DNA of 64,000 nucleotides. Origin: Cordylochernes scorpioides (Eukaryota; Arthropoda; Arachnida; Pseudoscorpiones; Chernetidae). Location of the stretch: assembly GCA_030710605.1 (NCBI GenBank), contig CP092879.1, positions 80,329,853 to 80,393,852 of the forward strand, given 5' to 3'. Positions 25,001 to 62,933 of the stretch are shown in pieces. Position 1 is the first letter of the stretch, and each line of letters opens with the position of its first letter. The notes beneath the pieces were generated by a model. The model saw only the letters and a list, made by a program, of their open reading frames with translations. It was not told the DNA's origin and ran no database searches. Both the position numbers and the translations under genes were made by a program.

Positions 25001-26450
25001 CATAATGACAAAGACATTCAACCTCTGTACATGTTCCTCATGTCAGACATTGGAGCTGAGTCAGTGACATGCTAATGAGTCCCAGTCATAATGACAAAGA
25101 CATTCAATCTCTGTACATGTTCCTCATGTCAGACATTGGAGCTAAGTCAGTGACATGCTACTGAGTCCCAGTCATAATGACAAAGACATTCAATCTCTGT
25201 ACATGTTCCTCATGTCAGACATTGGAGCTGAGTCAGTGACATGCTACTGAGTCCCAGTCATAATGACAAAGACATTCTATCTCTGTACATGTTCCTCATG
25301 TCAGACATTGGAGCTGAGTCAGTGACATGCTACTGAGTCCCAGTCATAATGACAAAGACATTTAATCTCTGTACATGTTCCTCATGTCAGACATTGGAGC
25401 TGAGTCAGTGACATGCTACTGAGTCCCAGTCATAATGACAAAGACATTCAATCTCTGTACATGTTCCTCATGTCAGACATTGGAGCTGAGTCAGTGACAT
25501 GCTACTGAGTCCCAGTCATAATGACAAAGACATTCAATCTCTGTACATGTTCCTCATGTCAGACATTGGAGCTGAGTCAGTGACATGCTACTGAGTCCCA
25601 GTCATAATGACAAAGACATTCAATCTCTGTACATGTTCCTCATGTCAGACATTGGAGCTGAGTCAGTGACATGCTACTGAGTCCCAGTCATAATGACAAA
25701 GACATTCAATCTCTGTACATGTTCCTCATGTCAGACATTGGAGCTGAGTCAGTGACATGCTACTGAGTCCCAGTCATAATGACAAAGACATTCAATCTCT
25801 GTACATGTTCCTCATGTCAGACATTGGAGCTGAGTCAGTGACATGCTACTGAGTCCCAGTCATAATGACAAAGACATTCAATCTCTGTACATGTTCCTCA
25901 TGTCAGACATTGGAGCTGAGTCAGTGACATGCTACTGAGTCCCAGTCATAATGACAAAGACATTCAATCTCTGTACATGTTCCTCATGTCAGACATTGGA
26001 GCTGAGTCAGTGACATGCTACTGAGTCCCAGTCATAATGACAAAGACATCTTGCAGATAGAGGTTGCCTGGCCAATAATCGTTGTTCTTCAAAAAGAAGA
26101 CAAACTTCGACCAGTGTAGTTCTTATTTAAAAAACTCTGCTCGCTGAAGTGTCTCTTAGTTCAGGAAAACAAAGACTCGAGGAGATAAGAAAGTAGCCAG
26201 CTTATTTGCATATTACAGTAGAATACTCAACTGTTGCTACCTTCTGTGTGCTCAGTAAGACATGTGGGTTTACGTATGTATCAATGGCGTCTCACCCAGG
26301 TCATCCTCCACTATGTCCGGGTAACAAGGGGGAGTGGGGACCACCTCAGGCTGTGGGACCTCCACGGACTCCGGGGGACACGGCCTGAACACCACCTCCT
26401 CCCCCAGAGCCAGGTCCAGCAGCTGCTCCACTGAGTCCTGGACAGTCGAC
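15866..26450 (-). CDS. IQUB: IQ motif and ubiquitin-like domain-containing protein
   Basis: Six exons read on the minus strand: 26450-26296, 20148-20050, 19085-18929, 18560-18350, 17889-16708 and 16048-15866; all junctions keep phase. About 662 residues are present. Recognisable family landmarks are FLGGFRH...ATQT, an IQ-like helix (FLQRCYRRFLARRR), the block TGAERKAALC, two CxxC pairs (CHGC and CPAC), WTPWNTILMTEEEALSH and the terminal SFISRIDQRN region. IQUB is known as a radial-spoke 1 component that binds calmodulin in sperm flagella. The ubiquitin-like domain should lie upstream of 26450, and I did not find it. Codons are very GC-rich compared with the surroundings. Confidence 0.88.
16302..16463. 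mobile_element. foldback MITE
   Basis: Arms AACAGGTTTCTGGAGAGGAG and CATCTCCAGAAACCGGGTTT with inner AATCTCAGGCATCC / GGATGCCTGAAAG. A half copy sits at 24425-24505. It lies in the last IQUB intron (16049-16707), where I see nothing else. Confidence 0.65.
16708..17889 (-). CDS. IQUB: IQUB main exon (IQ motif, coiled coil, zinc-binding pairs)
   Basis: 394 codons, phase 0 at both ends; acceptor CGTGCCCACAG, donor AAGCAG|GTAACT on the minus strand. It starts with the IQ-like helix, continues with a long charged helical region, then CHGC/CPAC pairs about 270 residues in, and ends in SIPSPKQ. Large size and strong conservation make this the anchor of the gene call. Confidence 0.9.
17890..18349. 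other. IQUB intron
   Basis: No element boundary is clear. Positions 18200-18310 resemble the S1 SINE body (GGGCAAGTAACCAAACGGGG). Confidence 0.35.
18350..18560 (-). CDS. IQUB: IQUB exon
   Basis: Acceptor ATTCCCACAG, donor GTCACG|GTAGGT. Phase 2 in, phase 0 out. Encodes ETQTIHQIKQKVQAGN and PSGKFISAENLRTRL. Confidence 0.8.
18611..18826. mobile_element. Tc1-like MITE, family T1
   Basis: Ends TACACTCATGGACAAAACTT and TTAAGTGTTGTCCATGAATG with an internal poly-T and CTTCAATAAAGGTCACTG. Other copies: 19259, 20271, 20488, 26570, 27146 and 29123. Flanking TA fits the Tc1/mariner target. Confidence 0.75.
18929..19085 (-). CDS. IQUB: IQUB exon (FLGGFRH segment)
   Basis: Acceptor CCATGTCCAG, donor GAGCG|GTGAGT. 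Phase 1 in, phase 2 out. Encodes HFLGGFRHVPTDVYFYN and AATQTPRK, a hallmark segment of the family. Confidence 0.85.
19259..19458. mobile_element. Tc1-like MITE, family T1
   Basis: Left end CTACACTCATAGACAAGA, right end CTTAAGTTTTGTCCATGAG, with CTTTATTGAAGACACAAGAG inside. Confidence 0.7.
20050..20148 (-). CDS. IQUB: IQUB exon (LYTPKVIPAPTYYDN)
   Basis: Acceptor TGTCCCCCAG, donor CTCCAG|GTAACA. Phase 1 in, phase 1 out, 99 nt. Encodes GPLYTPKVIPAPTYYDN then DDRMLKVVSPG. Confidence 0.75.
20271..20752. mobile_element. two Tc1-like MITEs, family T1, head to tail
   Basis: First copy 20271-20488 with ACACTCATAGACAAAACTTA and TTTGTCCATGAGTGTA; a second copy shares that end and runs to about 20750 (TTTTGTCCATGAGTGT). 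The inside of the second is interrupted near 20590-20660. Confidence 0.65.
20770..21440. other. LINE-derived 3' remnant
   Basis: AACAACAACAACAAAAAGCC then TTATTCAGGGTCACTGACCC resembles 36255-36410 (AACAACAACAAAGCTTTATT). Probably a 5'-truncated non-LTR copy in reverse orientation. No intact frame. Confidence 0.4.
21716..22010. other. GC-rich segment of unknown nature
   Basis: A 295-bp island of high GC in an AT-rich intron, with AGCTACCGCGGGTAGCGCC at its start and GGCTTATATACCCCGCGCTG near its end. No frame, tRNA or hairpin end I can name. It could be an LTR or a promoter piece of an element. Confidence 0.3.
22011..22616. other. AT-rich intron
   Basis: No gene or element recognised. Confidence 0.4.
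22617..22943 (-). mobile_element. SINE S1 copy
   Basis: Reverse orientation, starting at a poly-T, with CATGATAATCATGGTGGGTA and ending at a poly-C tract (22927-22943). A second partial copy follows at 22944-23015. Confidence 0.65.
23345..24415. repeat. tandem repeat, 106-bp unit, about 10 copies
   Basis: Each unit has CCTCAGATGTCTCCATACAT, TATCTTGGGTGTGTAAAGCT and a variable GTT run (GTTGTTGTT) at its end. On the minus strand each unit reads EQQLYTPKIVDIAVIEMYGD followed by a stop. Lies inside the large IQUB intron. Confidence 0.9.
24745..26050. repeat. satellite array, 86-bp unit, about 15 copies
   Basis: Very uniform units with TCATGTCAGACATTGGAGC and GCTGAGTCAGTGACATGC. All but one carry TGAGTCA, the AP-1 consensus (one has TAAGTCA). 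CCCAGTCATAATGACAAAGA resembles dispersed copies at 36010-36070 and 36760-36780. Confidence 0.95.
26296..26450 (-). CDS. IQUB: IQUB 5'-most exon found
   Basis: Donor ACCTGG|GTGAGA on the minus strand leaves phase 1 and fits the 20148 exon. The acceptor GTGAAGCCAG at 26450 is my choice; alternatives exist a few bases downstream. Encodes VQDSVEQLLDLALGEEVV and an acidic Pro-rich segment. Confidence 0.55.
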
Positions 26451-40300: not shown

Positions 40301-43300
40301 TGGTAACAGCGATGTTAAGGACAAAAGTACTGAATGAGACTGATGAGGGTAACAATGCTGTTGCCGAAATATCACACTTTATGAATTTCTTTGAGGATTT
40401 GGTCTTATTACCCTGTTGTTCTGAAAAAAGGAGAGAAGAATAAAGCTGAATGTGGGATTTGCTCCCAGATCCTGGTGGTGTCAGGGAGTGTGTACTGGTG
40501 GTGTCAGGGAGTGTGTCCTGGTGGGGTCAGGGAGTGTGTCCTGGTGGTGTCAGGGAGTGTGTCCTGGTGGTGTCAGGGAGTGTGACTGAAAGAGAGACCT
40601 GTGGTGCAGGAAGACCAGCTTCGATATTCCGCAGGAGCTCCAAGATTATGTGAAGGAGAGCCGCAGACACTGGACCAGGATCTGTTTCACCTACGAGCCG
40701 GTGGTCCGGACCATTGTGGACAAGAGCTACCAGCTGCTGCAGGGCCAGAGTCTGGCGGACTTCAACATCCTCTGGTAGGTCCAGTGCAATGGCTTTAAAT
40801 CATGCTGCACAGCTGTAAAATTGTTTTAGTATTACAGGATTCCCCTTTCAAACAAGTCCACAAGCCCCATGCCACAAATTTTACAATACAGTTGAACCTC
40901 GCAGTAAAGGACACCTAAATGCAGAGGAAAGTGTTCTTTAGGGAGAGGTGTCCTCTTACCAGAGATTAGCTAAATTGTAAAAATGGTAATTTTGGCAATG
41001 AAAACTGTTTTTTTGTAGAGAAGTGTCTGCTAGCAGGAGTGTCCCCTCATGGAGGTTGTTCTACTGTATTGGTGATGGAAACTTTCCTTTGTAGAGAGGT
41101 GTCCTATCATGGAGGTTTTTCTACTGTATTAGTGATGGAAACTGACCTTTGTAGAGAGGTGTCCTATCATGGAGGTTGTTCTACTGTATTGGTGATGGAA
41201 ACTGTCCTTTATAGAGAGGTGTCCTATCATGGAGGTTGTTCTACTGTATTGGTGATGGAAACTTTCCTTTGTAGAGAGGTGTCCTATCATGGAGGTTGTT
41301 CTACTGTATTAGTGATGGAAACTGTCCTTTGTAGAGAGGTGTCCTATCATGGAGGTTGTTCTACTGTATTAGTGATGGAAACTGACCTTTGTAGAGAGGT
41401 GTCCTATTAGTGTTGGAAACTTTCCTTTGTAGAGAGGTGTCCTATCATGGAGGTTGTTCTACTGTATTAGTGATGGAAACTTTCCTTTGTAGAGAGGTGT
41501 CCTCTCATGGAGGTTTTTCTACTGTATTAGTGATGGAAACTGACCTTTGTAGAGAGGTGTCCTATCATGGAGGTTGTTCTACTGTATTAGTGTTGGAAAC
41601 TTTCCTTTGTAGAGAGGTGTCCTATCATGGAGGTTGTTCTACTGTATTGGTGATGGAAACTGACCTTTGTAGAGAGGTGTCCTATCATGGAGGTTGTTCT
41701 ACTGTAGTAGTGATGGAAACTGTCCTTTATAGAGAGGTGTCCTATCATGGAGGTAGTTCTACTGTAGTAGTGATGGAAACTGTCCTTTATAGAGAGGTGT
41801 CCTATCATGGAGGTTGTTCTACTGTAGTAGTGATGGAAACTGTCCTTTATAGAGAGGTGTCCTATCATGGAGGTAGTTCTACTGTAGTAGTGATGGAAAC
41901 TGTCCTTTATAGAGAGGTGTCCTATCATGGAGGTTGTTCTACTGTATTGGTGATGGAAACTTTCCTTTATAGAGAGGTGTCCTATCATGGAGGTTGTTCT
42001 ACTGTAGTAGTGATGGAAACTTTCCTTTGTAGAGAGGTGTCCTATCATGGAGGTTGTTCTACTGTATTGGTGATGGAAACTTTCCTTTGTAGAGAGGTGT
42101 CCTATCATGGAGGTTGTTCTACTGTAGTAGTGATGGAAACTTTCCTTTGTAGAGAGGTGTCCTATCATGGAGGTTGTTCTACTGTATTGGTGATGGAAAC
42201 TGTCCTTTATAGAGAGGTGTCCTATCATGGAGGTAGTTCTACTGTAGTAGTGATGGAAACTGTCCTTTATAGAGAGGTGTCCTATCATGGAGGTTGTTCT
42301 ACTGTATTAGTGATGGAAACTTTCCTTTATAGAGAGGTGTCCTATCATGGAGGTTGTTCTACTGTATTGGTGATGGAAACTGTCCTTTATAGAGAGGTGT
42401 CCTATCATGGAGGTTGTTCTACTGTATTAGTGATGGAAACTGTCCTTTGTAGAGAGGTGTCCTATCATGGAGGTTGTTCTACTGTATTGGTGATGGAAAC
42501 TGTCCTTTATAGAGAGGTGTCCTATCATGGAGGTTGTTCTACTGTATTGGTGATGGAAACTTTCCTTTGTAGAGAGGTGTCCTATCATGGAGGTTGTTCT
42601 ACTGTATTGGTGATGGAAACTTTCCTTTATAGAGAGGTGTCCTATCATGGAGGTTGTTCTACTGTATTGGTGATGGAAACTGTCCTTTGTAGAGAGGTGT
42701 CCTATCATGGAGGTTGTTCTACTGTATTGGTGATGGAAACTTTCCTTTATAGAGAGGTGTCCTATCATGGAGGTTGTTCTACTGTAGTAGTGATGGAAAC
42801 TTTCCTTTGTAGAGAGGTGTCCTATCATGGAGGTAGTTCTACTGTAGTAGTGATGGAAACTTTCCTTTGTAGAGAGGTGTCCTATCATGGAGGTAGTTCT
42901 ACTGTAGTAGTGATGGAAACTGTCCTTTATAGAGAGGTGTCCTATCATGGAGGTTGTTCTACTGTATTAGTGATGGAAACTGTCCTTTATAGAGAGGTGT
43001 CCTATCATGGAGGTAGTTCTACTGTAGTAGTGATGGAAATTTTCCTTTATAGAGAGGTGTCCTATCATGGAGGTTGTTCTACTGTAGTAGTGATGGAAAC
43101 TTTCCTTTGTAGAGAGGTGTCCTATCATGGAGGTTGTTCTACTGTATTAGTGATGGAAACTGTCCTTTATAGAGAGGTGTCCTATCATGGAGGTTGTTCT
43201 ACTGTATTAGTGTTGGAAACTTTCCTTTATAGAGAGGTGTCCTCTCATGGAGGTTGTTCTACTGTAGTAGTGATGGAAACTGTCCTTTATAGAGAGGTGT

Positions 43301-46300
43301 CCTATCATGGAGGTTGTTCTACTGTAGTAGTGATGGAAACTTTCCTTTATAGAGAGGTGTCCTATCATGGAGGTTGTTCTACTGTATTGGTGATGGAAAC
43401 TTTCCTTTATAGAGAGGTGTCCTATCATGGAGGTAGTTCTACTGTAGTAGTGATGGAAACTGTCCTTTATAGAGAGGTGTCCTATCATGGAGGTTGTTCT
43501 ACTGTATTGGTGATGGAAACTTTCCTTTATAGAGAGGTGTCCTCTCATGGAGGTTGTTCTACTGTATTGGTGATGGAAACTGTCCTTTATAGAGAGGTGT
43601 CCTATCATGGAGGTTGTTCTACTGTATTAGTGATGGAAACTTTCCTTTATAGAGAGGTGTCCTATCATGGAGGTTGTTCTACTGTATTAGTGATGGAAAC
43701 TGTCCTTTATAGAGAGGTGTCCTATCATGGAGGTTGTTCTACTGTAGTAGTGATGGAAACTTTCCTTTATAGAGAGGTGTCCTCTCATGGAGGTTGTTCT
43801 ACTGTATTAGTGATGGAAACTGTCCTTTATAGAGAGGTGTCCTATCATGGAGGTTGTTCTACTGTAGTAGTGATGGAAACTTTCCTTTATAGAGAGGTGT
43901 CCTCTCATGGAGGTTGTTCTACTGTATTAGTGATGGAAACTGTCCTTTATAGAGAGGTGTCCTATCATGGAGGTTGTTCTACTGTAGTAGTGATGGAAAC
44001 TTTCCTTTATAGAGAGGTGTCCTCTCATGGAGGTTGTTCTACTGTAGTAGTGATGGAAACTGTCCTTTATAGAGAGGTGTCCTATCATGGAGGTTGTTCT
44101 ACTGTATTGGTGATGGAAACTTTCCTTTATAGAGAGGTGTCCTCTCATGGAGGTTGTTCTACTGTATTGGTGATGGAAACTGTCCTTTATAGAGAGGTGT
44201 CCTATCATGGAGGTTGTTCTACTGTATTAGTGATGGAAACTTTCCTTTATAGAGAGGTGTCCTATCATGGAGGTTGTTCTACTGTATTAGTGATGGAAAC
44301 TGTCCTTTATAGAGAGGTGTCCTATCATGGAGGTTGTTCTACTGTAGTAGTGATGGAAACTTTCCTTTATAGAGAGGTGTCCTCTCATGGAGGTTGTTCT
44401 ACTGTATTAGTGATGGAAACTGTCCTTTATAGAGAGGTGTCCTATCATGGAGGTAGTTCTACTGTAGTAGTGATGGAAACTTTCCTTTATAGAGAGGTGT
44501 CCTATCATGGAGGTTGTTCTACTGTAGTAGTGATGGAAACTGACCTTTGTAGAGAGGTGTCCTATCATGGAGGTTGTTCTACTGTAGTAGTGATGGAAAC
44601 TGTCCTTTATAGAGAGGTGTCCTCTCATGGAGGTTGTTCTACTGTATTAGTGATGGAAACTGTCCTTTATAGAGAGGTGTCCTATCATGGAGGTAGTTCT
44701 ACTGTAGTAGTGATGGAAACTTTCCTTTATAGAGAGGTGTCCTCTCATGGAGGTTGTTCTACTGTATTAGTGATGGAAACTGTCCTTTATAGAGAGGTGT
44801 CCTATCATGGAGGTAGTTCTACTGTAGTAGTGATGGAAACTTTCCTTTATAGAGAGGTGTCCTATCATGGAGGTTGTTCTACTGTAGTAGTGATGGAAAC
44901 TGACCTTTGTAGAGAGGTGTCCTATCATGGAGGTTGTTCTACTGTAGTAGTGATGGAAACTGTCCTTTATAGAGAGGTGTCCTATCATGGAGGTTGTTCT
45001 ACTGTAGTAGTGATGGAAACTTTCCTTTGTAGAGAGGTGTCCTATCATGGAGGTTGTTCTACTGTATTAGTGATGGAAATTTTCCTTTGTAGAGAGGTGT
45101 CCTATCATGGAGGTTGTTCTACTGTATTGGTGATGGAAATTTTCCTTTGTAGAGAGGTGTCCTATCATGGAGGTTGTTCTACTGTATTAGTGATGGAAAC
45201 TGACCTTTATAGAGAGGTGTCCTATCATGGAGGTAGTTCTACTGTATTGGTGATGGAAACTGTCCTTTATAGAGAGGTGTCCTATCATGGAGGTAGTTCT
45301 ACTGTAGTAGTGATGGAAACTGTCCTTTATAGAGAGGTGTCCTCTCATGGAGGTTGTTCTACTGTATTGGTGATGGAAACTGTCCTTTATAGAGAGGTGT
45401 CCTATCATGGAGGTAGTTCTACTGTAGTAGTGATGGAAATTTTCCTTTGTAGAGAGGTGTCCTATCATGGAGGTTGTTCTACTGTATTAGTGATGGAAAC
45501 TGACCTTTATAGAGAGGTGTCCTATCATGGAGGTAGTTCTACTGTATTGGTGATGGAAACTGTCCTTTATAGAGAGGTGTCCTATCATGGAGGTTGTGCT
45601 ACTGTAGTAGTGATGGAAACTGACCTTTGTAGAGAGGTGTCCTATCATGGAGGTAGTTCTACTGTATTGGTGATGGAAACTGTCCTTTATAGAGAGGTGT
45701 CCTATCATGGAGGTTGTTCTACTGTATTAGTGATGGAAACTGTCCTTTATAGAGAGGTGTCCTATCATGGAGGTTGTTCTACTGTATTAATGATGGAAAC
45801 TGACCTTTCTAGAAAGGTGTCCTATCATGGAGGTTGTTCTACTGTTTTAGTTGTATAGGAGTCTACTGCTAATCCTCACACAAGTCATTTACTCTTAAAA
45901 AAAAAAAAGATTCCCACCTAAAAGCTAAAACTAAAGGTTAAAAGAATTTTAATAATGTGTATCAAACACACAAGGTAATAAGACCAAACCTAAATAAATA
46001 CAGTATAACCTCGTTAATTCGACACGCCCCAATTCGACACTCGGCGATAATTCGACCATGTTCCGATGTCCCGACCTCCGGCCTATCAAATAACAAACCG
46101 TAATTCGACAGTATCGATAATACGACAGTTCCGATAGTTCGACCATTTTAAAATTCGAATTTCGACGATACGATCGCGCCTGCGTACTTTTGGTTTCTGG
46201 TTAGTTTAAGTTTCACTTTGCAGTGCCGTTGCGCAATTTTGCGGATGTTATTGTTGTTGTTTTTTTACGCGGGAATTTCGGCATCATGCGCTAACTAATA

Positions 46301-55300: not shown

Positions 55301-58300
55301 CTTTTCTGTTATTCTTCATATTCTCAGTCAGCAACTGACCTTTCCGAAGGGCATAAGACTTGAGACCAAGGTCCTCATGGATAGTTCTGACAATTGTCAT
55401 AGAGCCAACGTCCATTTCCTTGGCTATGGCCCTCATGCTCTTCCCAGGGTTTCCATCAATCTTCTCCTTGACATTTTTGACAAATTCTTCGCCTCTTACC
55501 CTGTCCGATCGACGCGAGTGCTTTTTCCTTGTAGCTATCCCCTCTTTGTTACTGTCGGCCTCATCAAACTGCTTCTTGACACGATAAATAGTGGTTTTGG
55601 GCAACTTAAGAAAATCCACTATCTCTTTGGGGCTCCTTCCGGCGCGCAGAGTAACGATGATGGCAGCTCGATTTTCAAATTCTCGGTTATTCTTCATCAC
55701 TACACTGCGCACACATGTACTGTTGCATTTTACATGAATATGGCTACGTAATGAAAAAAAAACAAGTTTTTAATCTCAAGTAGTTTTTGTTTTATGGACT
55801 GTCAAAGTTAGTCCCAATTTACCTGGTACACCCTGTATTTGTGTAATCCTTGCATTTGTAAAAACCAAAAGTTTACAACCTGAATGGCAGAAGTTTATTT
55901 ATTTATTCTATTATCCCATGTGTCATTACACAATGTCATGGCGACTATTCCCATGTATCACAGAAGGTAATAAATGGTTTTATAGCTCCGGGTCACTGAA
56001 ACCTGGTTAGTGCTCATCTGTTATATCTTCAGGTAGTGTTGGATGTTCTGGTGGCTGCTGTCAATAGCTAATCATCAGTGTGGTTATTTATAATACAATA
56101 TAATGCAGCTTATGATCCCATCCCTGGACACTTTATTTTTCCGTTTATCACAATTCATACTTTCATACTTCATCCCTAAGGTTAGAAATAATTGTTATTT
56201 CTCCATTTAAATAAATTTCGATTTTTCGTTAAAAAGAAACACATGCGGGATAATTTTCAATGTCGTTCTACAGTGTGGTTAGCTGGCCTGTGATGTGTTT
56301 AGATTTATAAAATGCCACAATAACTCACTGATGGCTCCGGGTCAACAGCAATATTATGTACTGCTATCAAATATCAGCATCACCAAGCCTCTGTCCTCCA
56401 TGCTAGGGTCAGCTGCCAAGATGTCTGTTCTCCCTGTTGACTGCATCTGAAGCTGAGTCTGACTGCCACAGATTCTTTGACTCATATTGAGTCGGTGAAC
56501 GAGTGGATAACACCCTCGATTTCCGACAGTCATGAACTGGGATCAAATCCTGAGTTAACCTTTTGTTTATTATGTGTGAATCGAACTGGCTTTGGCCTCC
56601 TAGCACTAAGGAGGAATCACCGCCTAATTCTTATTTTAACGCTGGTTTTAATTATCTGCTTCTTGACTCTCTCAGCGAGCTAACTATAACTCCTTTCTAC
56701 TTGAATAACTGCTATTGTCTCGTCTCACCAACTCTAATGACTCAACCTCGTCTACTTTAATAACTCTTGTCTCACCAACTCTAATGACTCAACCTCGTCT
56801 ACTTTAATAACTCTTGTCTCACCAACTCTAATGACTCAACCTCGTCTACTTTAATAACTCTTGTCTCACCAACTCTAATGACTCAACCTCGTCTACTTTA
56901 ATAACTCTTGTCTCACCAACTCTAATGACTCAACCTCGTCTACTTTAATAACTCTTGTCTCACCAACTCTAATGACTCAACCACGTATACTTAATAACTC
57001 TTGTCTCACCAACTCTAATGACTCAACCTCGTCTACTTTAATAACTCTTGTCTCACCAACTCTAATGACTCAACCACGTATACTTAATAACTCTTGTCTC
57101 ACCAACTCTAATGACTCAACCTCGTCTACTTTAATAACTCTTGTCTCACCAACTCTAATGACTCAACCACGTATACTTAATAACTCTTGTCTCACCAACT
57201 CTAATGACTCAACCACGTACACTTAATAACTCTTGTCTCACCAACTCTAATGACTCAACCACGTATACTTAATAACTCTTGTCTCACCAACTCTAATGAC
57301 TCAACCTCGTCTACTTTAATAACTCTTGTCTCACCAACTCTAATGACTCAACCTCGTCTACTTTAATAACTCTTGTCTCACCAACTCTAATGACTCAACC
57401 ACGTATACTTAATAACTCTTGTCTCACCAACTCTAATGACTCAACCACGTATACTTAATAACTCTTGTCTCACCAACTCTAATGACTCAACCACGTACAC
57501 TTAATAACTCAATAACTGTCTTTATTTTCTAAAATCAAGATTATATACATTTCTAAAATTTACATAATTTAACAATAATTAACAAAAGTAAATTCTAACA
57601 ATTTTGCATATTTAAGGCTGGAACATACTCCCCCCGGCCGCTGAACTCTGGTTCAGATTTGAAGGGAAGCGGAGCCAACTTCGTAATAGGTCGTAGGTAG
57701 ACTCCGGTAGCAGCCCGAACTTGGGCAACTCGCACCTTCTGGTCTTGAAGAACGACAAATACTTCTCTGCAGTCTCGTGTTCTTTATCAGCTGGTCCCAA
57801 TATGAACACCAGGTCCAAAGCTACAGCAGTGTATTGACTATCTCTGTATTTGACATAGGTTGGTAGTTCAGTCCATTGTTTAGACTTCAGGTTCAACTTC
57901 CATAAATATTTCGACTCCTTCCCGGCGTGAACAAATACAGCTCTTACCCAATCCTGCACAATAGTAAAGTGATTGATATTTTTTGGATAGCCCTCTTTCT
58001 CACCAAGAATCGGAATAGTTGTATAACACCCCCAGGAATCTGTTTGAAGTCGGTAGTTATACAGATTACAGAAGTGTTGTTCCCACTGCATTCGAGGGAA
58101 TAGTAAAAGTTTCTTGTTGGTATAGCAAATCTGAAGAGAGAGAAATTTCTCTTTCCAAAATATTTTGTCTGATCCAATCAGATGCCAATCTTTGTTTAGG
58201 AGATGATAGGAGAAAACCTTGTAAGTAGAGTGGTCGCGGGTCTCTGCAAGCATAAACAAGAACGCCGATGGTGCAAATGTCATTGCCAGGACCAAGAGGT

Positions 58301-61300
58301 CAGTTAGGGGCGACTTCCTGCTTTTCACTAGAACAGAAGCCCGACCCTCTTTAAGTTTCACTCGGACAATATTGTCGGTGCAAGTTACCTTATTCCCTCT
58401 AGAGTGTATTCTCCCTCCTACAAAGTACACCCTTTTATCGTGAGAGGCATAAACGATAGACTTGGAAATAACTATTGGAGCGAAACCATTCACTTTTCTC
58501 CAGATCCATTTTTTGTGAGGGATGTGGTATTGGTACAATACCGAGCGGACATTCGGGCCATCTAGAGATTCCACATCTTCTATGAGGAGGTAAAGATGAG
58601 TTCCGTCGCCGACAAAGACCTTCGGGTAGCTACATTGGATGGCTTTGGTAACTTCTGGCCACTCTCCATTTTCCTTCAATATGGCGCGGTGGTAGACTGG
58701 TAGCCCTTCTAAATCCTCGACTTCTTTGACCGCGGTCTGCCTCTGGAGATTCGCCATTGCCACTGTAGTAGGTGAGAGGAAACCAATTGGATCGAAAATC
58801 CTCGCAATATTGGAGAGAAGATCTCTTTTGGTAACAACTTCTTCAGGAATAGTCATATTAACTCTAAACGTATCTTGTACATGATCCCATACAATTCCTA
58901 AAATCTTGGATATGGCTCCTTTCTCCAAGTTAATTTTCTTCTCTTCGTTCATTTCCTCGACATGAGACACTATCTCGTGGCAATTTGAATTCCACTTTCT
59001 TAAGTGAAACCCTCCCTTTTTCATTAAGTCCTTTAATTGGTCTATTAGTTCTTTGGTTTCAGCAATCGTTTGAGCTCCTGTTAGCAAATCATCGACATAG
59101 AAATCATTCAAGGTCACCCTAGAAGCTTCAGGATAATTATGGCCTTCATCTTCTGCTAACTGTTGTAATGTTCTCATTGCCAAAAATGGAGCCGAAGTTG
59201 TACCATAGGTAACAGTCAGCAGTCGATAGTCCACCACAGGCTCTTCTGGCGATGGTCTCCACAATATCCTCTGATAGTCCGCATCTTCTGGATGAATTCT
59301 TATCTGGCGGTACATCTTTTCTATATCAGCAGTTATGGCGACAGGATACGTTCTGAATCTGAGGAGAATGAAAAATACATCCTGTTGAATTTTTGGTCCC
59401 TTGTGCAAAAATTGATTTAAAGAAACATTATTTTCAGATTTAGCTGATGCATCAAACACAACTCTCATTTTTGTTGTAGTGGATTGCTCTCTAATTACTG
59501 GATGATGAGGCATGTAATAGCATCTGCACAATTCTCGCTTCACTTCTGTAATTGGGACCCTTTCCATGTGGTTTAAGTGTTCATATTCCTTCATGAATCC
59601 CCGGTATTGGTCATATAATTTCACATTCTTACACAATTTTCCTTCCAACGAAAGGAACCTTCTTAAAGCTTTTTCTCTTGATTCACCCAGAAGCGGTCGA
59701 TGTTGTCTGAATGGCAATTTTACCCAATACCTTCCATGGCTATCTCTGCCATGGTTATTCGAAAATAACCTTTCACAATCTTCGTCCTGTGTACAAAGAT
59801 CTGGTGACGGCACAGATTCAGTTTCCCAGAATCTTTTCATTACGAATTCTAGTTCTGGTTCAGATTGTAAACTCAGGTTACAGACTTCTGTATTACTCTC
59901 TGATGTTCCCATGAGTTTTCCTAGAAGTACCCAACCTAGTCTTGTATTAATAGCCATTGGCAATCCTTCTCCGAGAGATATAGAGCCATTCAACATAAGT
60001 TCAGTGTATATATCTGCTCCCAATATCATATCTATTGGGGCTTGTATGTAGAACTCTGGGTCTGCCAATTTGAGGCTCTTCAAAGTTGGCCAATTAGGGT
60101 CTTTTAACCTGAAGTTCGGAATTTCTGAAGTGAGTACTCCCGTGACTACTGCCTCCACCGAGAATTCCTCAGAATTATTCAGTGGACAAAATGTCACACT
60201 TACTGTCGATGAAGAATGCTGCACTGGTGTGTTTCCAACCCCTATAATCATCCGATCTGATTTCCTTTGGACAAGTCCCAATCTTTCGCAGCATCCTTTT
60301 GTTATCATGGTGACTTGGGAACCGCTGTCCAGTAGGGCTCTGCAGGTGCATAACTTTCCGAGTCCATTTTTTATCTTGATTCTAGCCGTTGCGAGTAGTA
60401 CGTGGCTATCATTGCAGTTTGCCTGTTGAGTATTCGTTAAATTGATAGCACTTTCATGTTCCTTCGGAGTTGTGTTCTCCACTTGGGCCGAAGCGCCTTC
60501 CGTGCTCGGTTTATCATAATGAATCATCGTGTGGTGCTTTCCCTTGCATACTTTGCATCGTTGGTTCAGCCTACAATTCCATGAGAAATGGCCTTTCCTC
60601 AAGCAATTGAAGCACAATTTATGACTTTTTACTACATTTAATTTTTCTTTTAAAGGCATTTTGCAAAATAAGTTGCACATGTATAGTGGATGATGCTTAG
60701 ATTTGCATAATATGCAAGTGTCCGAACTCTCAATTAGCATCCCGTAGCTTTGGCATTTGGGAAATCTCGATCCGGTGGTTTCTTCCTTTTTTGAACATTC
60801 CCTGACAGCACAAGACATGCTTCTCGCATGTCTGGAAATGAACGCTATGAACTTGTCATAAGAAGGAAGAGTGTTGTCCACGGACAGTTCCCAATCCAAC
60901 CTTAGATTTTCACTCAACTTCTGCTGGAGGAAGTGCACCAGGATCACATCCACTAATTGATTTCTCTTCAATTCCAGTGTTTCTAAGTTTCTTATGGCTT
61001 CATTACAAACATCCATGAATTCATGGAGACACTTAGCCGATGGATTCTTAATTGCCCTGAGAGAAAAGATTTTTGACACCTGGGCATAAGCTAGCTCTCT
61101 CGGGTTATCATATCTTGATAACAGTGTACTCCATGCTTGGCCATAATTTTCACTTAGTAAAGGGAAACCCCTTATTAATCTGGCCGCTTCGCCTTTTACT
61201 GCTGAATTCAAATATTGTAACTTCTGTATATTAGTTAACCCTGGATGTGCATCGATGGTGGTGAGGAATAGCTCTTTGAAGTTGATCTAATTGCCCATAT

Positions 61301-62933
61301 CTCCATCATATATCGGTAAGTCAAATTGAGGCAATTTTATATTTGCCTGAGAGCCATTTGGCTTTATGTCCGCCAGTTTGTCTTTGAGTTTTCTCTCATT
61401 TTCTATTTTTACCCTCAAGCTTCCAATCTTGTTCATTGAACCATCATATGCCTCACTTTCTTTATCTATATCAACTTCATCCAAAGAAAACAGCTCGTCG
61501 TAGAGTTTCTCAATTTTCTCTTTGATCTCCTTTAATTCTTCACCCATTATTTCTAAGCGTATTGTTTCACCTGCCTCAATAATTGAATCCACACTTTCAA
61601 TAAATCCATCAATTCTCCTTATCTGACAACTTAACTTTCTTTGGAGGATCCTTTCGTCTCGAGACATTTGCAATTGTATTCTCGCTGAGTTTTTGCTAAA
61701 ATTCTTCTGTTTCAAATCCTAATCCAGATATCGAGGGACCATGAATCGAACTGGCTTTGGCCTCCTAGCACTAAGGAGGAATCACCGCCTAATTCTTATT
61801 TTAACGCTGGTTTTAATTATCTGCTTCTTGACTCTCTCAGCGAGCTAACTATAACTCCTTTCTACTTGAATAACTGCTATTGTCTCGTCTCACCAACTCT
61901 AATGACTCAACCATGTACACTTAATAACTCAATAACTGTCTTTATTTTCTAAAATCAAGATTATATACATTTCTAAAATTTACATAATTTAACAATAATT
62001 AACAAAAGTAAATTCTAACAATTTTGCATATTTAAGGCTGGAACAATGTGAATAACCTTCATATATTATTCATTGTTTCAATTATCATAAACTAGGTTGT
62101 TCTTGTTGAGCGGTACTTAATAAAGTGATTTTGGAACCGAACCCGATATACCCCCCATTACCTTGGTGAAGTTCCCTAATTTATATAATTACTGGGGGAG
62201 AAGCAATGTTCCCATGTGTGGTGTCAGGTACTGGACAAGTGCAAAGTGAAGTTTGCCAAGCAGCTCCAGCTGAAGGTGCAGTGGGTCAACCGGGAGATTG
62301 CCCGCAATGCCCAGCGGGTGAAGGAGCTGGAGCAGTATGGGGACTTGGAGCTAATCCCCCAGTACTACCAGGAGGTTCGGCTGCTGCAGAAATGTCTGAT
62401 GGAGATCCAGGAGGCCATCTCCTGGATCAATGAGGTACACCACTGTTCCATTACTGTAACACCACCACTGTTCCATTACTGTAACACCACTGTAACACCA
62501 CTTTACTGCCTCTGTACCACCTTGTACCTTTAGTGTAATGCTACTTAGTACCACTACTGTACCACCACTGTACCATTACTGTACCACTACTGTACCACCA
62601 CTGTACCATTACTGTACCACTACTGTACCACCACTGTACCATTACTGTACCATTACTGTACCACTACTGTACCACCACTGTACCATTACTGTACCACTAC
62701 TGTACCACCACTGTACCATTACTGTACCATTACTGTACCACTACTGTACCACCACTGTACCACTACTTGTACTACCACTGTACCACCACTGTACCATCAC
62801 TGGTGTGATAGGAGGAAGCCCTGTTCAAGCTCAACATCACCTCCTACCCTGATGTGGACACTGCTCTCAAAGCCATGGAGCCCTTCATCCGCCTCTACAG
62901 TCTCTACTTGGCCTGGGAGAAGATGGAGCGCAG
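34113..62933 (+). CDS. axonemal dynein heavy chain, N-terminal part
   Basis: Sixteen exons join in phase, about 756 residues, all from the tail (stem) region before the motor; the 3' part lies beyond the window. Alignment in the mind with the DNAH3/7/12 group fits over many segments, for example LGLPPIPHL near the start, VPATTKQMLEMGDYIK, VSWLFTVQPRFDAAGE, LEQYGDLELIPQYYQEV, and NEEEALFKLN. I cannot decide which paralogue. Such single-headed inner-arm chains power axonemal bending. The first exon (34113) shares a promoter with ARL6. Introns range from 47 nt to over 8 kb and hold most transposons of the right half. Confidence 0.88.
34311..36893. other. dynein intron 1
   Basis: AT-rich. It contains an FB foldback at 35228-35398 and inverted dispersed-repeat pieces at 36000-36150 and 36690-36785, and a LINE-like 3' remnant at 36255-36410. 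No exon recognised. Confidence 0.45.
35228..35398. mobile_element. foldback element, family FB
   Basis: Left arm AAGGCAACAAGACCAAATCC and GGCGTTTTGGTAACAACACT; right arm GATGGTAACAATGCTGTTAC and TTGGTCATATTACCTCA. Confidence 0.6.
36894..37048 (+). CDS. dynein exon 2
   Basis: Acceptor GTGCTATCAG, donor CAAGT|GTGAGT, phase 0 in and 2 out. Encodes LDPLGLPPIPHLDVDKD and RWRLVTEWEREERKQ. Confidence 0.8.
37205..37312. mobile_element. foldback family FB, copy
   Basis: AATAAGACCTAATGTTACGT through CATCATCAAACAAGAG, with a short right arm TTGGGTCTTATTTTCTTGTA. A further half lies at 37402-37515. Confidence 0.5.
37505..37728. repeat. tandem repeat, 60-bp unit (FB end)
   Basis: Nearly four identical units of ATCCAAATTGTACCTTATCA plus GGAGATTTGGTCTTATTACC. 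Same source sequence as the 57-bp array at 960-1195. Confidence 0.9.
38103..38193 (+). CDS. dynein exon 3
   Basis: Acceptor GGTGACCAG, donor CCAGAG|GTAAGC, phase 2 in and 0 out. Encodes LAKIEAMKKAERARPLQPK and YAGLPWPPE. Confidence 0.75.
38241..38421 (+). CDS. dynein exon 4
   Basis: Acceptor CCGTGTCCAG, donor GTCA|GTAAGT, phase 0 in and 1 out. The intron before it is only 47 nt. Encodes YHINKLRDSVYNAPVPS and KETYEMAVRKYV. Confidence 0.8.
38422..39613. other. dynein intron 4
   Basis: FB copy at 38866-38990 and MITE-like CAGTAGAAGAACCTCC sequence at 39112-39410 related to the family at 31770. Nothing else seen. Confidence 0.4.
39614..39674 (+). CDS. dynein exon 5
   Basis: Acceptor TGTGTTGCAG, donor CCCAT|GTGAGA, phase 1 in and 2 out, 61 nt. 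Encodes DYVFASTKSEQKDEYTQPP. It bridges exons 4 and 6 exactly in phase. Confidence 0.65.
40108..40265 (+). mobile_element. non-LTR retrotransposon 3' end
   Basis: AAGTCAGACTTTCACCAAAG through CAAGAGGATAAGAAACAAC; same family as 8041-8400. Confidence 0.6.
40470..40582. repeat. minisatellite, 23-bp unit, about 5 copies
   Basis: GTGTCAGGGAGTGTGTCCTG units directly upstream of dynein exon 6. Confidence 0.85.
40610..40774 (+). CDS. dynein exon 6
   Basis: Acceptor TGTGGTGCAG, donor CTCTG|GTAGGT, phase 2 in and 2 out. Encodes SFDIPQELQDYVKESRRHW and KSYQLLQGQSLADFNIL. Confidence 0.85.
40889..41040. mobile_element. left part of a CAGT-type MITE
   Basis: CAGTTGAACCTCGCAGTAAA then GGTAATTTTGGCAATGAAAA, matching the left half and middle of 31770-32002. 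Its right end passes into the 60-bp satellite. Confidence 0.65.
41041..45850. repeat. satellite array, 60-bp unit, about 80 copies
   Basis: Exact 60-bp period except one 36-bp unit at 41401-41436. Units contain TCATGGAGGTTGTTCTACTG and CTTTATAGAGAGGTGTCC. Variable positions (GTATTGG/GTATTAG/GTAGTAG; TTTCC/TGTCC/TGACC; CTATC/CTCTC) define higher-order units: 120 bp around 43740-44220, and a 240-bp block at 44401-44640 repeated at 44761-45000. One plus frame stays open for 1482 codons because 60 is divisible by 3; it is not a gene. Confidence 0.97.
46356..47195 (-). mobile_element. Helitron containing a tRNA-Gly gene
   Basis: On the minus strand: A|TC start (TCCTTATATATATAAAAATG), a GTTTGTTATCGCATCACGC motif, and the end CCCGGGCGAAGCCGGGT, spacer, CTAG|T. 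840 bp with the AT target expected for Helitrons. No Rep/helicase frame, so non-autonomous. Confidence 0.75.
46873..46943 (-). tRNA. tRNA-Gly (GCC)
   Basis: 71 nt on the minus strand. Acceptor stem GCATCGG/CCGATGC is perfect, A box TGGTTCAGTGG and B box GGTTCGATTCC are intact, anticodon GCC in CTGCCAC. An oligo-T run follows directly as Pol III stop. One T-stem position (46896) gives an A-G mismatch, so the gene may be decaying. Confidence 0.93.
47938..48090. mobile_element. foldback element, family FB
   Basis: ATTTCGATTACAGCATTGTT and CATCATCAGATAAAAGTACT, then the inverted arm GATGTTAACAACACTGTTAC. Confidence 0.6.
48159..48242 (+). CDS. dynein exon 7
   Basis: Acceptor TGTTGCCCAG, donor AATGA|GTGAGT, phase 2 in and 2 out. 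Encodes SADPMKVTHLLEMINLEFM. Confidence 0.8.
48296..48407 (+). CDS. dynein exon 8
   Basis: Acceptor TGTTGCGCAG after an intron of 53 nt, donor ATGTTG|GTGAGA, phase 2 in and 0 out. Encodes LWWKEIQVCITQMYPSNLR. An upstream start of the open frame would add about 14 residues but breaks phase. Confidence 0.75.
48470..48780 (-). mobile_element. SINE S1, complete with target duplication
   Basis: Flanked by TTCTCTCTTCAT on both sides (48458-48469 and 48781-48792). On the minus strand the head is GGGGGTCGGTGGAAGGCCGG with B box GGTTCGATTCC, ending in CTAGGGATAAGC and an A tract. Confidence 0.85.
48793..49174. other. dynein intron 8, right part
   Basis: Contains GACAGAGAGTCGCTGGGAAT and related dispersed-repeat text; no element ends resolved. 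Confidence 0.35.
49175..49354 (+). CDS. dynein exon 9
   Basis: Acceptor GTATTTCCAG, donor TACATG|GTGAGT, phase 0 both ends. Encodes INKLKCDFIERFLSLYRPH and SPDFGKVHQVMTQILYM. Confidence 0.88.
49735..49915. mobile_element. foldback element with poly-T/poly-A
   Basis: AACTATTTTAGAGGCGTAAT at the left and ATTACGCCTCTAAAATAGTT at the right are perfectly inverted; the inside is CATCGCAGTAAGGACAGTAG, shared with 11190, 19510 and 37905. Confidence 0.75.
50189..50360 (+). CDS. dynein exon 10
   Basis: Acceptor TGGTGTGGCAG, donor CTGG|GTGAGC, phase 0 in and 1 out. Encodes CNETMTKIPTIPYLFKESM. An acceptor about 40 nt upstream would also keep the frame, but the chosen one matches the family length. Confidence 0.82.
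50636..50945 (+). mobile_element. SINE S1 copy
   Basis: Head GGGGGGTTGGTGGAAGGCTG, B box GGGTTCGAACCC, body and CTAGGGATAAGC with a poly-A tail. Confidence 0.8.
51048..51403 (+). mobile_element. non-autonomous Helitron with paralogous empty site
   Basis: Starts TCTATATATATAAAAATGAA, ends CCCGGGGTGAAGCCCGGG, spacer, CTAG. Inserted between A and T of CTGACTTATA; the uninterrupted text is at 50471-50485. Confidence 0.88.
51797..51888 (+). CDS. dynein exon 11
   Basis: Acceptor TTGTTCTCAG, donor AAAGAG|GTCTGT, phase 1 in and 0 out. Encodes SSLINGEDLRDTADFLDTD. Confidence 0.82.
52070..52133 (-). mobile_element. non-LTR retrotransposon 3' end, reverse
   Basis: CTTATCCCCTTGTGTAAAGA on the plus strand, as at 13525. 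Confidence 0.55.
52245..52423 (+). CDS. dynein exon 12
   Basis: Acceptor TGGTGACAG, donor AAGAG|GTCGGT, phase 0 in and 2 out. Encodes SNNSTFEVAIFKVDASALF and IVMEIHQQLVDRISNF. Confidence 0.87.
52500..52620. mobile_element. foldback element, family FB
   Basis: Short complete hairpin: ACAAGGTAATAAGACTAAAT, GACGTTTTGGTAACAACACT against TTACCGAAACATCCTGCACT, ending TTGGTACCTTGTGTTTC. Confidence 0.7.
52621..53090. other. dynein intron 12, right part
   Basis: No repeat or exon recognised. Confidence 0.35.
53091..53220 (+). CDS. dynein exon 13
   Basis: Acceptor CGACTGTGCAG, phase 2 in. Donor GACAGA|GTGTGG gives phase 0 and exact family spacing to the next exon; the better-looking GTGGGT two bases later would break phase. 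Encodes LCDIFDGIRQRVMVVPATT. Confidence 0.78.
53325..53805. mobile_element. fragmented FB foldback copies
   Basis: Arms at 53325-53415 (GTTTTGGTAACAACGTTGTT) and 53518-53600 (TGATGGTAACAACGCTGTTA) plus two diverged copies of the outer end at 53620-53770. Confidence 0.6.
53810..53950 (+). CDS. dynein exon 14
   Basis: Acceptor CATCAAGAG, donor GGCGAA|GTAAGT, phase 0 both ends. Encodes MMIDIYGMKQASELEMEA and LVSWLFTVQPRFDAAGE. The acceptor could also be GCGCAG at 53824. Confidence 0.75.
54085..54293. mobile_element. foldback element, family FB, best-preserved hairpin
   Basis: Left arm AATAGTGTGTGATATTTCGG, CAACAGCATTGTCACCATCA; right arm TGATGGTGACAATGCTGTTG, ACGAAACGTCACACACTATT. The arms share changes not seen in other copies. 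Confidence 0.8.
54533..55835 (-). mobile_element. mariner-type DNA transposon, complete
   Basis: 1303 bp between TA dinucleotides (54531-54532 and 55836-55837). Perfect 24-bp terminal inverted repeats begin CAGGGTGTACCAGGTAAATT. One intact transposase frame. Sits in dynein intron 14. Confidence 0.95.
54657..55712 (-). CDS. mariner/Tc1-superfamily transposase, DD37D
   Basis: 351 residues. N-terminal helix-turn-helix (KEIVDFLKLPKTTIYRVKKQ) recognises the ends. Catalytic Asp are in FFSDEKNF (about 158), FQQDSAPAH (about 252) and SPDCNPLD (about 290); the spacing of 37 residues places it with the DD37D (maT-like) group. No stop or frameshift, so it may be active. Confidence 0.93.
   Translation of the reverse strand: MRSVVMKNNREFENRAAIIVTLRAGRSPKEIVDFLKLPKTTIYRVKKQFDEADSNKEGIATRKKHSRRSDRVRGEEFVKNVKEKIDGNPGKSMRAIAKEMDVGSMTIVRTIHEDLGLKSYALRKGQLLTENMKNNRKGKAAALLNNLKHDSFGMLRFFSDEKNFDVDQKVNPRNDRWICKDPSEIPVVMHTKFPASVMVLGVISSEGDVMPPHFFEKGLRMNADTYINVLETVVKPWMDMVAAGRKYVFQQDSAPAHKAKKTQSWLTLNLPSHWGPDIWPPNSPDCNPLDYYVWGVVERDVNKAPHTTIQSVKKAVHTVMTQMDKVIVAKACASFRTRLETVVANNGNYIE
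56478..56576 (+). mobile_element. SINE S2, left half
   Basis: GTCGGTGAACGAGTGGATAA and GGGATCAAATCC match the copy at 31449. The right half resumes at 62046. The LTR element splits it. Confidence 0.7.
56577..57625 (-). repeat. LTR (3' LTR of the element) with VNTR
   Basis: 1049 bp bounded by TG...CA on both strands. Outside the VNTR it matches the 304-bp LTR at 61742-62045 without differences I could see. The VNTR (about 56715-57505) has 17 units of 46-47 bp, each with TGACTCA. Confidence 0.92.
57612..61211 (-). CDS. BEL/Pao polyprotein fused to a kelch-like propeller
   Basis: About 1199 codons. Order: Gag-like region, zinc knuckle CFNCLRKGHFSWNC (about 197-210) and CKVCKGKHH, aspartic protease DSGSQVTM (about 295-302), reverse transcriptase with YVDDLL (about 704), and the Pao segment FDPIGFLSPTT ending near residue 825. 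From there on the frame runs without break into about 370 residues with at least five blade-like repeats (LYQYHIPHKKWIW, VFSYHLLNKDWHLI, LYNYRLQTDSWGCY, LWKLNLKSKQWTEL, and VYFVGGRIHSRGN) as in BTB-kelch proteins, but without BTB or BACK. The RNase H and integrase expected here are absent. The frame upstream is cut from 61287-61715 by a single in-frame TAG. Confidence 0.88.
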   Translation of the reverse strand: MNSAVKGEAARLIRGFPLLSENYGQAWSTLLSRYDNPRELAYAQVSKIFSLRAIKNPSAKCLHEFMDVCNEAIRNLETLELKRNQLVDVILVHFLQQKLSENLRLDWELSVDNTLPSYDKFIAFISRHARSMSCAVRECSKKEETTGSRFPKCQSYGMLIESSDTCILCKSKHHPLYMCNLFCKMPLKEKLNVVKSHKLCFNCLRKGHFSWNCRLNQRCKVCKGKHHTMIHYDKPSTEGASAQVENTTPKEHESAINLTNTQQANCNDSHVLLATARIKIKNGLGKLCTCRALLDSGSQVTMITKGCCERLGLVQRKSDRMIIGVGNTPVQHSSSTVSVTFCPLNNSEEFSVEAVVTGVLTSEIPNFRLKDPNWPTLKSLKLADPEFYIQAPIDMILGADIYTELMLNGSISLGEGLPMAINTRLGWVLLGKLMGTSESNTEVCNLSLQSEPELEFVMKRFWETESVPSPDLCTQDEDCERLFSNNHGRDSHGRYWVKLPFRQHRPLLGESREKALRRFLSLEGKLCKNVKLYDQYRGFMKEYEHLNHMERVPITEVKRELCRCYYMPHHPVIREQSTTTKMRVVFDASAKSENNVSLNQFLHKGPKIQQDVFFILLRFRTYPVAITADIEKMYRQIRIHPEDADYQRILWRPSPEEPVVDYRLLTVTYGTTSAPFLAMRTLQQLAEDEGHNYPEASRVTLNDFYVDDLLTGAQTIAETKELIDQLKDLMKKGGFHLRKWNSNCHEIVSHVEEMNEEKKINLEKGAISKILGIVWDHVQDTFRVNMTIPEEVVTKRDLLSNIARIFDPIGFLSPTTVAMANLQRQTAVKEVEDLEGLPVYHRAILKENGEWPEVTKAIQCSYPKVFVGDGTHLYLLIEDVESLDGPNVRSVLYQYHIPHKKWIWRKVNGFAPIVISKSIVYASHDKRVYFVGGRIHSRGNKVTCTDNIVRVKLKEGRASVLVKSRKSPLTDLLVLAMTFAPSAFLFMLAETRDHSTYKVFSYHLLNKDWHLIGSDKIFWKEKFLSLQICYTNKKLLLFPRMQWEQHFCNLYNYRLQTDSWGCYTTIPILGEKEGYPKNINHFTIVQDWVRAVFVHAGKESKYLWKLNLKSKQWTELPTYVKYRDSQYTAVALDLVFILGPADKEHETAEKYLSFFKTRRCELPKFGLLPESTYDLLRSWLRFPSNLNQSSAAGGSMFQP
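61287..61715 (-). CDS. N-terminal Gag part, ending at an in-frame TAG
   Basis: 142 residues with a long helical, charged region (EELKEIKEKIEKLYDEL), ending IKLPQFDLPIYDGDMGN then TAG (61287-61289). The P.F...YDGD motif usually runs on into the Gag core (DUF1759), and the downstream frame continues with it. So the TAG is either a mutation or a stop that is read through. Confidence 0.8.
   Translation of the reverse strand: MKQKNFSKNSARIQLQMSRDERILQRKLSCQIRRIDGFIESVDSIIEAGETIRLEIMGEELKEIKEKIEKLYDELFSLDEVDIDKESEAYDGSMNKIGSLRVKIENERKLKDKLADIKPNGSQANIKLPQFDLPIYDGDMGN
61742..62045 (-). repeat. LTR (5' LTR of the element)
   Basis: 304 bp, TG...CA, with only one VNTR unit. Abuts the primer-binding site on its left (plus-strand view). 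Confidence 0.92.
62046..62145 (+). mobile_element. SINE S2, right half
   Basis: ATTGTTTCAATTATCATAAA through AATAAAGTGATTTTGGAACC, matching 31550-31620. Confidence 0.7.
62228..62434 (+). CDS. dynein exon 15
   Basis: Acceptor TGTGGTGTCAG, donor AATGAG|GTACAC, phase 0 both ends. Encodes LDKCKVKFAKQLQLKVQW and YGDLELIPQYYQEVRLL. Separated from exon 14 by an 8.3-kb intron with the mariner and LTR elements. Confidence 0.9.
62445..62800. repeat. minisatellite, 11-bp based
   Basis: Runs of CTGTACCACTA, CTGTACCACCA and CTGTACCATTA in about 33-bp triplets. It fills the short intron before exon 16. Confidence 0.9.
62812..62933 (+). CDS. dynein exon 16 (last in window)
   Basis: Acceptor GGTGTGATAG, donor GCGCAG|GTAACT, phase 0 in and 2 out. 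Encodes EEALFKLNITSYPDVDTAL and SLYLAWEKMERR. The gene continues past 64000. Confidence 0.88.

Follow-up and report, generated by a model that had tools for sequence, protein, structure and literature searches.

A BEL/Pao retrotransposon of Cordylochernes scorpioides with a predicted kelch-type propeller in place of most of RNase H and integrase

Introduction

Acutely transforming retroviruses carry gag/pol-onc fusions, have lost replication genes and need a helper. Capture of host sequence by LTR elements is also described for crocodilian endogenous retroviruses (ERVs), which are reported to have acquired KIT-ligand and nectin3 from host mRNA (PMC4299795). Such capture is said to come mostly at the expense of internal coding regions, so that the provirus is no longer autonomous, env having been lost in the nectin3 case, and purifying selection is spoken of (PMC4299795).

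In the current study we analysed a window of 64,000 nucleotides from the pseudoscorpion Cordylochernes scorpioides, in which a BEL/Pao LTR retrotransposon lies on the minus strand at 56577-62045, whose gag, protease and reverse transcriptase (RT) continue in the same frame into a predicted kelch-type propeller. A sequence-only reading of the window had claimed that the integrase half of this element was replaced by a kelch-like domain, and comparison with an intact sister element bears the claim out at two exact joins, 58759/58758 and 57745/57744. We propose that the fused element is a non-autonomous BEL/Pao element, which arose by one gene-capture event and is supplied with enzymes in trans by the sister family, a reading to which we assign a probability of about 0.88.

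Results

The long reading frame of the fused element (61286-57612, minus strand, 1224 aa) is open, and in the window copy an in-frame TAG at 61289-61287 splits the first 126 gag codons from this 1224-codon frame. The features of the window copy are as follows.

56572-56576: target-site duplication ATGTG, left
56577-57625, minus strand: 3' LTR, 1049 bp, with an expanded 46-bp minisatellite at ~56718-57510
57626-57642, minus strand: polypurine tract (PPT) AGCGGCCGGGGGGAGTA, which all 21 copies read share with the sister element
57626-57744, minus strand: end of the sister's integrase, out of frame here, 43 aa
57745-58758, minus strand: foreign insert, predicted kelch-type propeller, 1014 bp; visual inspection gives five blades plus part of a sixth
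58759-58808, minus strand: remnant of the PF05380 (RNase H) region, ending at the exact 5' join
58998-59354, minus strand: RT portion matched by RVT_1 at E 3.3e-6, its 27.4 bits being just short of the cut-off (29.6)
59296-59505, minus strand: 210-bp RT piece lying between 8-bp repeats TCATCCAG; 13 of the 20 fetched copies lack it, with the frame kept
60138-60365, minus strand: aspartyl protease, Pfam Asp_protease_2, E 4.4e-6
60882-61283, minus strand: DUF1759 (BEL gag), Pfam E 3.7e-30
61287-61667, minus strand: gag start, 126 codons closed by the in-frame TAG
61726-61741, minus strand: primer binding site (PBS) TGGTCCCTCGATATCT, starting TGGTCCCTC...
61742-62045, minus strand: 5' LTR, 304 bp, with 0 mismatches to the 3' LTR in 304 aligned bases, array expansion aside
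62046-62050: target-site duplication ATGTG, right

The LTR termini are TGTTCC...GATTCA, and the left LTR reaches 1049 bp because its 46-bp minisatellite has expanded. The PPT includes GGCCGGGGGGAGTA, and both PPT and PBS stand at the expected places. The marks of a BEL/Pao element, namely TG...CA LTRs, a 5-bp target duplication, a PBS and a PPT, are found in the window element and likewise in 19 of the 20 copies fetched from the genome; moreover, DUF1759 gag, aspartyl protease and BEL-type RT lie in a single frame, and the RT is 96% identical to that of a canonical BEL element. The profile search recommended by the sequence-only reading recovered DUF1759, the protease, RVT_1 (under its cut-off) and kelch-type models, but the kelch scores stayed under their cut-offs. 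The same reading had held RNase H and integrase to be missing, and this is confirmed: Pfam searches of the frame and alignment to the sister, which has both, found neither RNase H (PF05380) nor integrase (H2C2, rve, DUF5641) in the window element, the PF05380 match in the 1224-aa frame covering positions 9-38 of 162 only (E 0.003, under the cut-off). Since RNase H and integrase are missing, the fused element is a derivative of a BEL element and not a complete one.

Adjoining the element, an exon-like stretch at 62216-62437 on the plus strand resembles dynein heavy chain 12 of the axoneme (PDB 8j07, E 3.2e-4) and had no Pfam match; the insertion may be intronic in that gene. The window also holds long tandem arrays at 41039-45851, 3940-5614 and 24766-26049, with units of ~60, 65 and 86 bp as judged from self-match offsets.

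PF05380 gave 9878 first-look candidates in the same genome. Twelve BEL RT-RNase H stretches were sampled, and the RT of one (L039, contig C3) is 96.3% identical in amino acids to the window RT over 409 residues, the remaining 11 being only 43-49% identical. The sister locus has two identical 289-bp LTRs, the target duplication ATAAT and the same PPT as the window element; its LTR is 91% identical to the window 5' LTR and its 5'UTR-gag 97.06% identical over 1732 bp. Pfam matches in the sister comprise RNase H (PF05380, 1.3e-42), the integrase zinc finger (9.4e-9), the start of DUF5641 (1.3e-8) and the rve core (3.5e-5, under the cut-off). In the intact copy that was read, a stop interrupts the frame close to the end of integrase. 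Among 81 integrase places that were scored, however, 40 belong to frames of at least 1700 residues, among them that of the sister itself and one with an internal stop, and open intact copies therefore exist.

The presence of an intact sister in the same genome allows both joins to be placed to the base. The window element and the sister align without gaps over 1224 bp to 58759, where they diverge, and similarity restarts at 57744, with 118 of the 119 last internal bases identical. The foreign piece is therefore 1014 bp long and stands for ~2.1 kb of the sister. The shared tail is read in different frames, as DQKVRVAQVRAATGVYLRPITKLAPLPF... in the sister and as TRRCELPKFGLLPESTYDLLRSW... up to the stop in the window element, the final 43 residues of the open frame being the sister's integrase tail, out of frame, and not kelch. 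The initial description, protease and RT followed by ~370 kelch residues without a frame break, was thus right about the in-frame fusion, but the kelch part comes to 337-338 residues once the 43-residue tail is removed. The 10-mer CTACAGTGGC, which ends at the 5' join (58759), recurs once in the sister (L041, 3' part), at the integrase end and ~43 bp before the 3' join, and is possibly the trace of a two-step origin.

Searched alone, the insert matched PF24681 (1.7e-6, 28 bits) and PF24981 (1.2e-5, 25 bits) in Pfam, where the curated cut-offs are 50, and a NanM-type propeller in NCBIfam (1.6e-4, 20.5 bits against a cut-off of 416). A PDB search with the last 361 residues of the frame found the kelch domain of KLHDC10 (9d8p, E 1.3e-4), the match lying inside the insert over 235 residues. 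The top matches in Pfam, NCBIfam and PDB are kelch-type propellers, with all library scores below the curated cut-offs, and the blade count was made by eye; we read the insert as a divergent kelch propeller, its fold being a prediction. Pfam searches of the 1224-aa frame found no BTB or BACK match in the element, though a donor gene might have had these domains. When the host genome was searched for a donor, the matches listed for the full kelch DNA and protein queries were all full-length at 98-100% (best 40 of 718 and best 113 of 543, respectively), part of the 718 DNA candidates presumably being intact copies, as the query ends are common to the sister. A 120-bp interior kelch piece gave 189 first-look candidates, close to the number of fused joins; the best 40 of the 189 were scored, and a single donor locus could not be discerned behind the copies. 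A search of viral contigs and phage sequences found no relative. The kelch domain was most likely taken from a host gene; since the genome search did not locate the donor, we infer, rather than observe, that it was captured from this host, and the BTB-kelch donor gene suggested earlier is not borne out.

Genome-wide counts were made with plain 36-base patterns allowing at most 2 mismatches, the reversed-pattern control being 0 for each. The fused 5' join occurs at 192 places (one locus, L022, holds two), the fused 3' join at 190, the intact RT-RNase H join at 282 and the RT end just upstream of the join at 475. The sum of 192 and 282 is 474, against 475, which indicates that RT ends continue into either kelch or RNase H, with no numerous third kind, within pattern misses, and the two fused counts point to one capture event that spread to about 190 copies. 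Among 73 fused 5' joins, 69 have a listed 3' join, the insert being of full length in 58, in frame in 59 and out of frame in 10.

We read 21 copies in full, the window copy and 20 fetched ones, plus one intact copy; the source of the 20 was a ranking by kelch protein score, which skews them to young, open copies. All but one of the 21 have their own 5-bp target duplication, the exception (L023) being a tandem pair with a common LTR, and LTR mismatches number 25 of 7661 over the 21 copies and 0 in 13 of them, indels aside. That the fused form was itself copied, as had been argued from the LTRs, target duplication, PBS and PPT of the window copy, is thus upheld by the 192 joins and by the separate duplications of 20 of the 21 copies. 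The LTRs of the 20 fetched copies measure 300 to 578 bp, and two clearly unequal LTRs occur only in the window copy and L018 among the 21. The PBS falls into four main types across the 21 copies (8, 6, 3 and 3 copies), with TGGTCCCTC in common and divergence after it, plus one variant in the first base; these types perhaps reflect different tRNA primers or recombination. Several loci have unusual arrangements: in L023 (C2:134455406-134463588) the paired fused copies share one LTR and lie 4255 bp apart; at C6:107439777-107448003 three intact-type junctions spaced 4113 bp look like a further tandem array; and in L022 (C7:83158705-83166887) 240 bp of the RT end are duplicated ahead of the kelch join, the frame still being open.

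A subfamily of the fused element has in addition lost 210 bp of RT (59505-59296), in frame and between the 8-bp repeats. The lost piece carries FDASAK and the catalytic motif A, TADIEKMY. The LTRs are free of mismatches in 9 of the 13 RT-deleted copies, and the frame is kept through to kelch, measuring 1281 aa in nine of these copies and exceeding that length in two others, the 13 having been drawn from the list ranked by kelch protein score, in which open frames are favoured. Genome-wide, the deletion junction occurs at 118 places. Junctions were paired, by exact matches only, over the part of the genome common to three listings (C1 to C7 at 59.98 Mb): of 39 RT-deletion junctions, 34 precede a fused join, 2 precede an intact join, 1 belongs to a chimera and 2 have no listed partner, and the deletion is present at 35 of 69 fused joins listed there. 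As copies without RT catalysis, RNase H and integrase have moved recently, the enzymes were required in trans. The chimera (L070, C2:196893700-196896300), the only such locus among the listings compared, has 138 bp of RNase H after the RT deletion; from there it returns to the end of RT and continues into kelch, the jump lying at a 10-mer that both places share. Template switching by reverse transcriptase between two RNAs in one particle yields structures of this type, and as a chimera of the fused and intact kinds L070 indicates that their RNAs were co-packaged.

Selection on the kelch part was assessed in 40 DNA-ranked copies minus L055, in which a 1-bp insertion puts the sequence out of register. 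The 39 copies have 33 nonsynonymous (N) and 13 synonymous (S) variants, as against N41/S14 with L055 included, and omega lies between 0.70 (kappa 1) and 0.94 (kappa 3.4), with p 0.18 and 0.48; variants present in at least 2 copies number 5 N and 1 S. No purifying selection is therefore detectable on the kelch part in these 39 copies (omega 0.7-0.9). An early estimate of omega 0.33 for once-seen variants (N14/S14; N6/S2 for multi-copy ones) was discarded; most of the copies behind it had been ranked by protein score, a ranking that masks amino-acid changes, and the signal was gone in the DNA-ranked set. In the 21 copies read, gag residues 1-300 are under purifying selection (N29/S32, omega 0.33, p 2e-5) and RT gives N49/S28, omega 0.64 and p 0.04; the first gag codons (N23/S11, p 0.22) and the protease (N15/S10, p 0.12) are not significant. 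The comparison of gag with kelch is uneven, as gag variants may predate the capture.

Discussion

We suggest that the capture took place by template switching: while the parental element was being reverse-transcribed, synthesis would have jumped to a kelch mRNA present in a sister particle. The template jumps would have exchanged ~2.1 kb for 1014 bp of kelch coding sequence, the lost part beginning just downstream of RT, ending close to the C-terminus of integrase and comprising the bulk of RNase H and integrase, and the product would have retained the cis signals (LTR, PBS and PPT) and gag-protease-RT, with kelch in frame with RT. The fused element would then be transcribed from its own LTR and its RNA packaged alongside sister RNA via the common cis signals, as the one chimeric locus suggests, and RNase H and integrase, and for the RT-deleted subfamily also RT, would be provided in trans by the abundant intact sister family. 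Mobilisation in trans is well supported, and between the two fates first put forward a non-autonomous element of this kind is the most likely, given the recent movement of RT-deleted copies, the presence of an intact sister and the chimera. The helper is probably the sister family, to judge from the shared cis signals (the LTR being only 91% identical) and from the chimera. The kelch part is most simply cargo, although a Gag-Pro-RT-kelch protein is possible.

A kelch domain kept by selection, with the fused protein made and the propeller aiding the element, for example as a binder of some host protein or as a passenger of the particle, is conceivable but on balance unlikely. Such a role would fit the in-frame join, the frame kept by the insert in 59 of the 69 copies with both joins listed, the share of the fused form among the family junctions (192 of 474, from a single event) and the retention of the frame to kelch in the RT-deleted subfamily. 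The variants in the 39 DNA-ranked copies, single and multi-copy alike, speak against it, and the copies are too young for their open kelch frames to say much. Selection on the kelch part thus gives no backing to the earlier idea of a propeller that serves the element or acts in ubiquitin ligase targeting. We likewise regard as doubtful an active propeller that, within a Gag-Pro-kelch polyprotein in the sister's particles, attaches to a host protein or gives its own RNA an advantage and so out-competes the helper. If true, this would be a retrotransposon trading its enzymes for a host-derived binding domain, and an element lacking integrase, RNase H and even RT catalysis would beat its helper.

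A two-step origin, in which kelch was initially added close to the end of integrase and a subsequent deletion between two CTACAGTGGC copies removed RNase H-integrase, seems improbable. The recurrence of this 10-mer, ending exactly at the 5' join, would fit such a loss, but the start of the insert would need to coincide exactly with the repeat, and kelch is not evident outside fused copies, the 189 first-look interior candidates (best 40 of 189 scored) comparing with 192 fused joins. It is very improbable that the junction is an assembly join or that the insert is a chance kelch look-alike within a divergent RNase H/integrase. The modest kelch scores would suit a look-alike; however, the junction, searched genome-wide for other copies as had been recommended, recurs at 192 places, the sister's true RNase H/integrase has no DNA match to the insert except the common tail and encodes a different protein past the join, and the best matches of the segment after RT are kelch-type, so that both accounts are rejected. 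Domestication as a host gene of retroviral origin, the other fate first put forward, could draw on the long open frame but is refuted as a general account by about 190 dispersed copies, those read being young, all 21 with LTRs and 20 with their own target duplication, which are not one host gene.

The trans-mobilised element that we favour resembles the acutely transforming retroviruses in that a host coding segment is fused into gag-pol, replication genes are lost and a helper is needed; it differs from them in showing no sign of growth-promoting cargo and in spreading as copies within a genome. The kelch domain of KLHDC10 (PDB 9d8p) is like the insert in its kelch-type blades over 235 residues, a weak similarity with no evidence of orthology. 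With the crocodilian ERVs the element shares a capture of host mRNA, here a probable one, with coding loss and non-autonomy (PMC4299795); those are retroviruses, whereas here a BEL/Pao element has its RNase H-integrase replaced, the fusion is in frame to RT and purifying selection is not detectable. Maize Bs1 is likewise an LTR element with host gene segments, but it comes from a plant and carries pieces of three genes, no piece being a full-length ORF, whereas here there is one propeller domain, about 190 copies and an intact sister in the genome (PMC13317346). The LTR retrotransposons of bdelloid rotifers, with their reported ORF3 capture, show that animal elements likewise gain extra protein domains; there the added ORFs (env-like, esterase, exonuclease) stand beside gag and pol, whereas here the domain replaces part of pol (PMC5408684). 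We found no BEL/Pao-kelch fusion in the open-access library searched, as judged by titles and the opening lines of abstracts. Host-gene capture by LTR elements is known, and what is new here is therefore the BEL/Pao-kelch variant with an unusually complete anatomy. A single genome contains the captured domain together with the intact sister, the exact joins on either side, the RT-less subfamily and a recombinant of the two forms; as the copies read are young, one can trace base by base how a parasite element arose and spread, and the kelch fusion offers a testable case of whether a captured binding domain helps an element.
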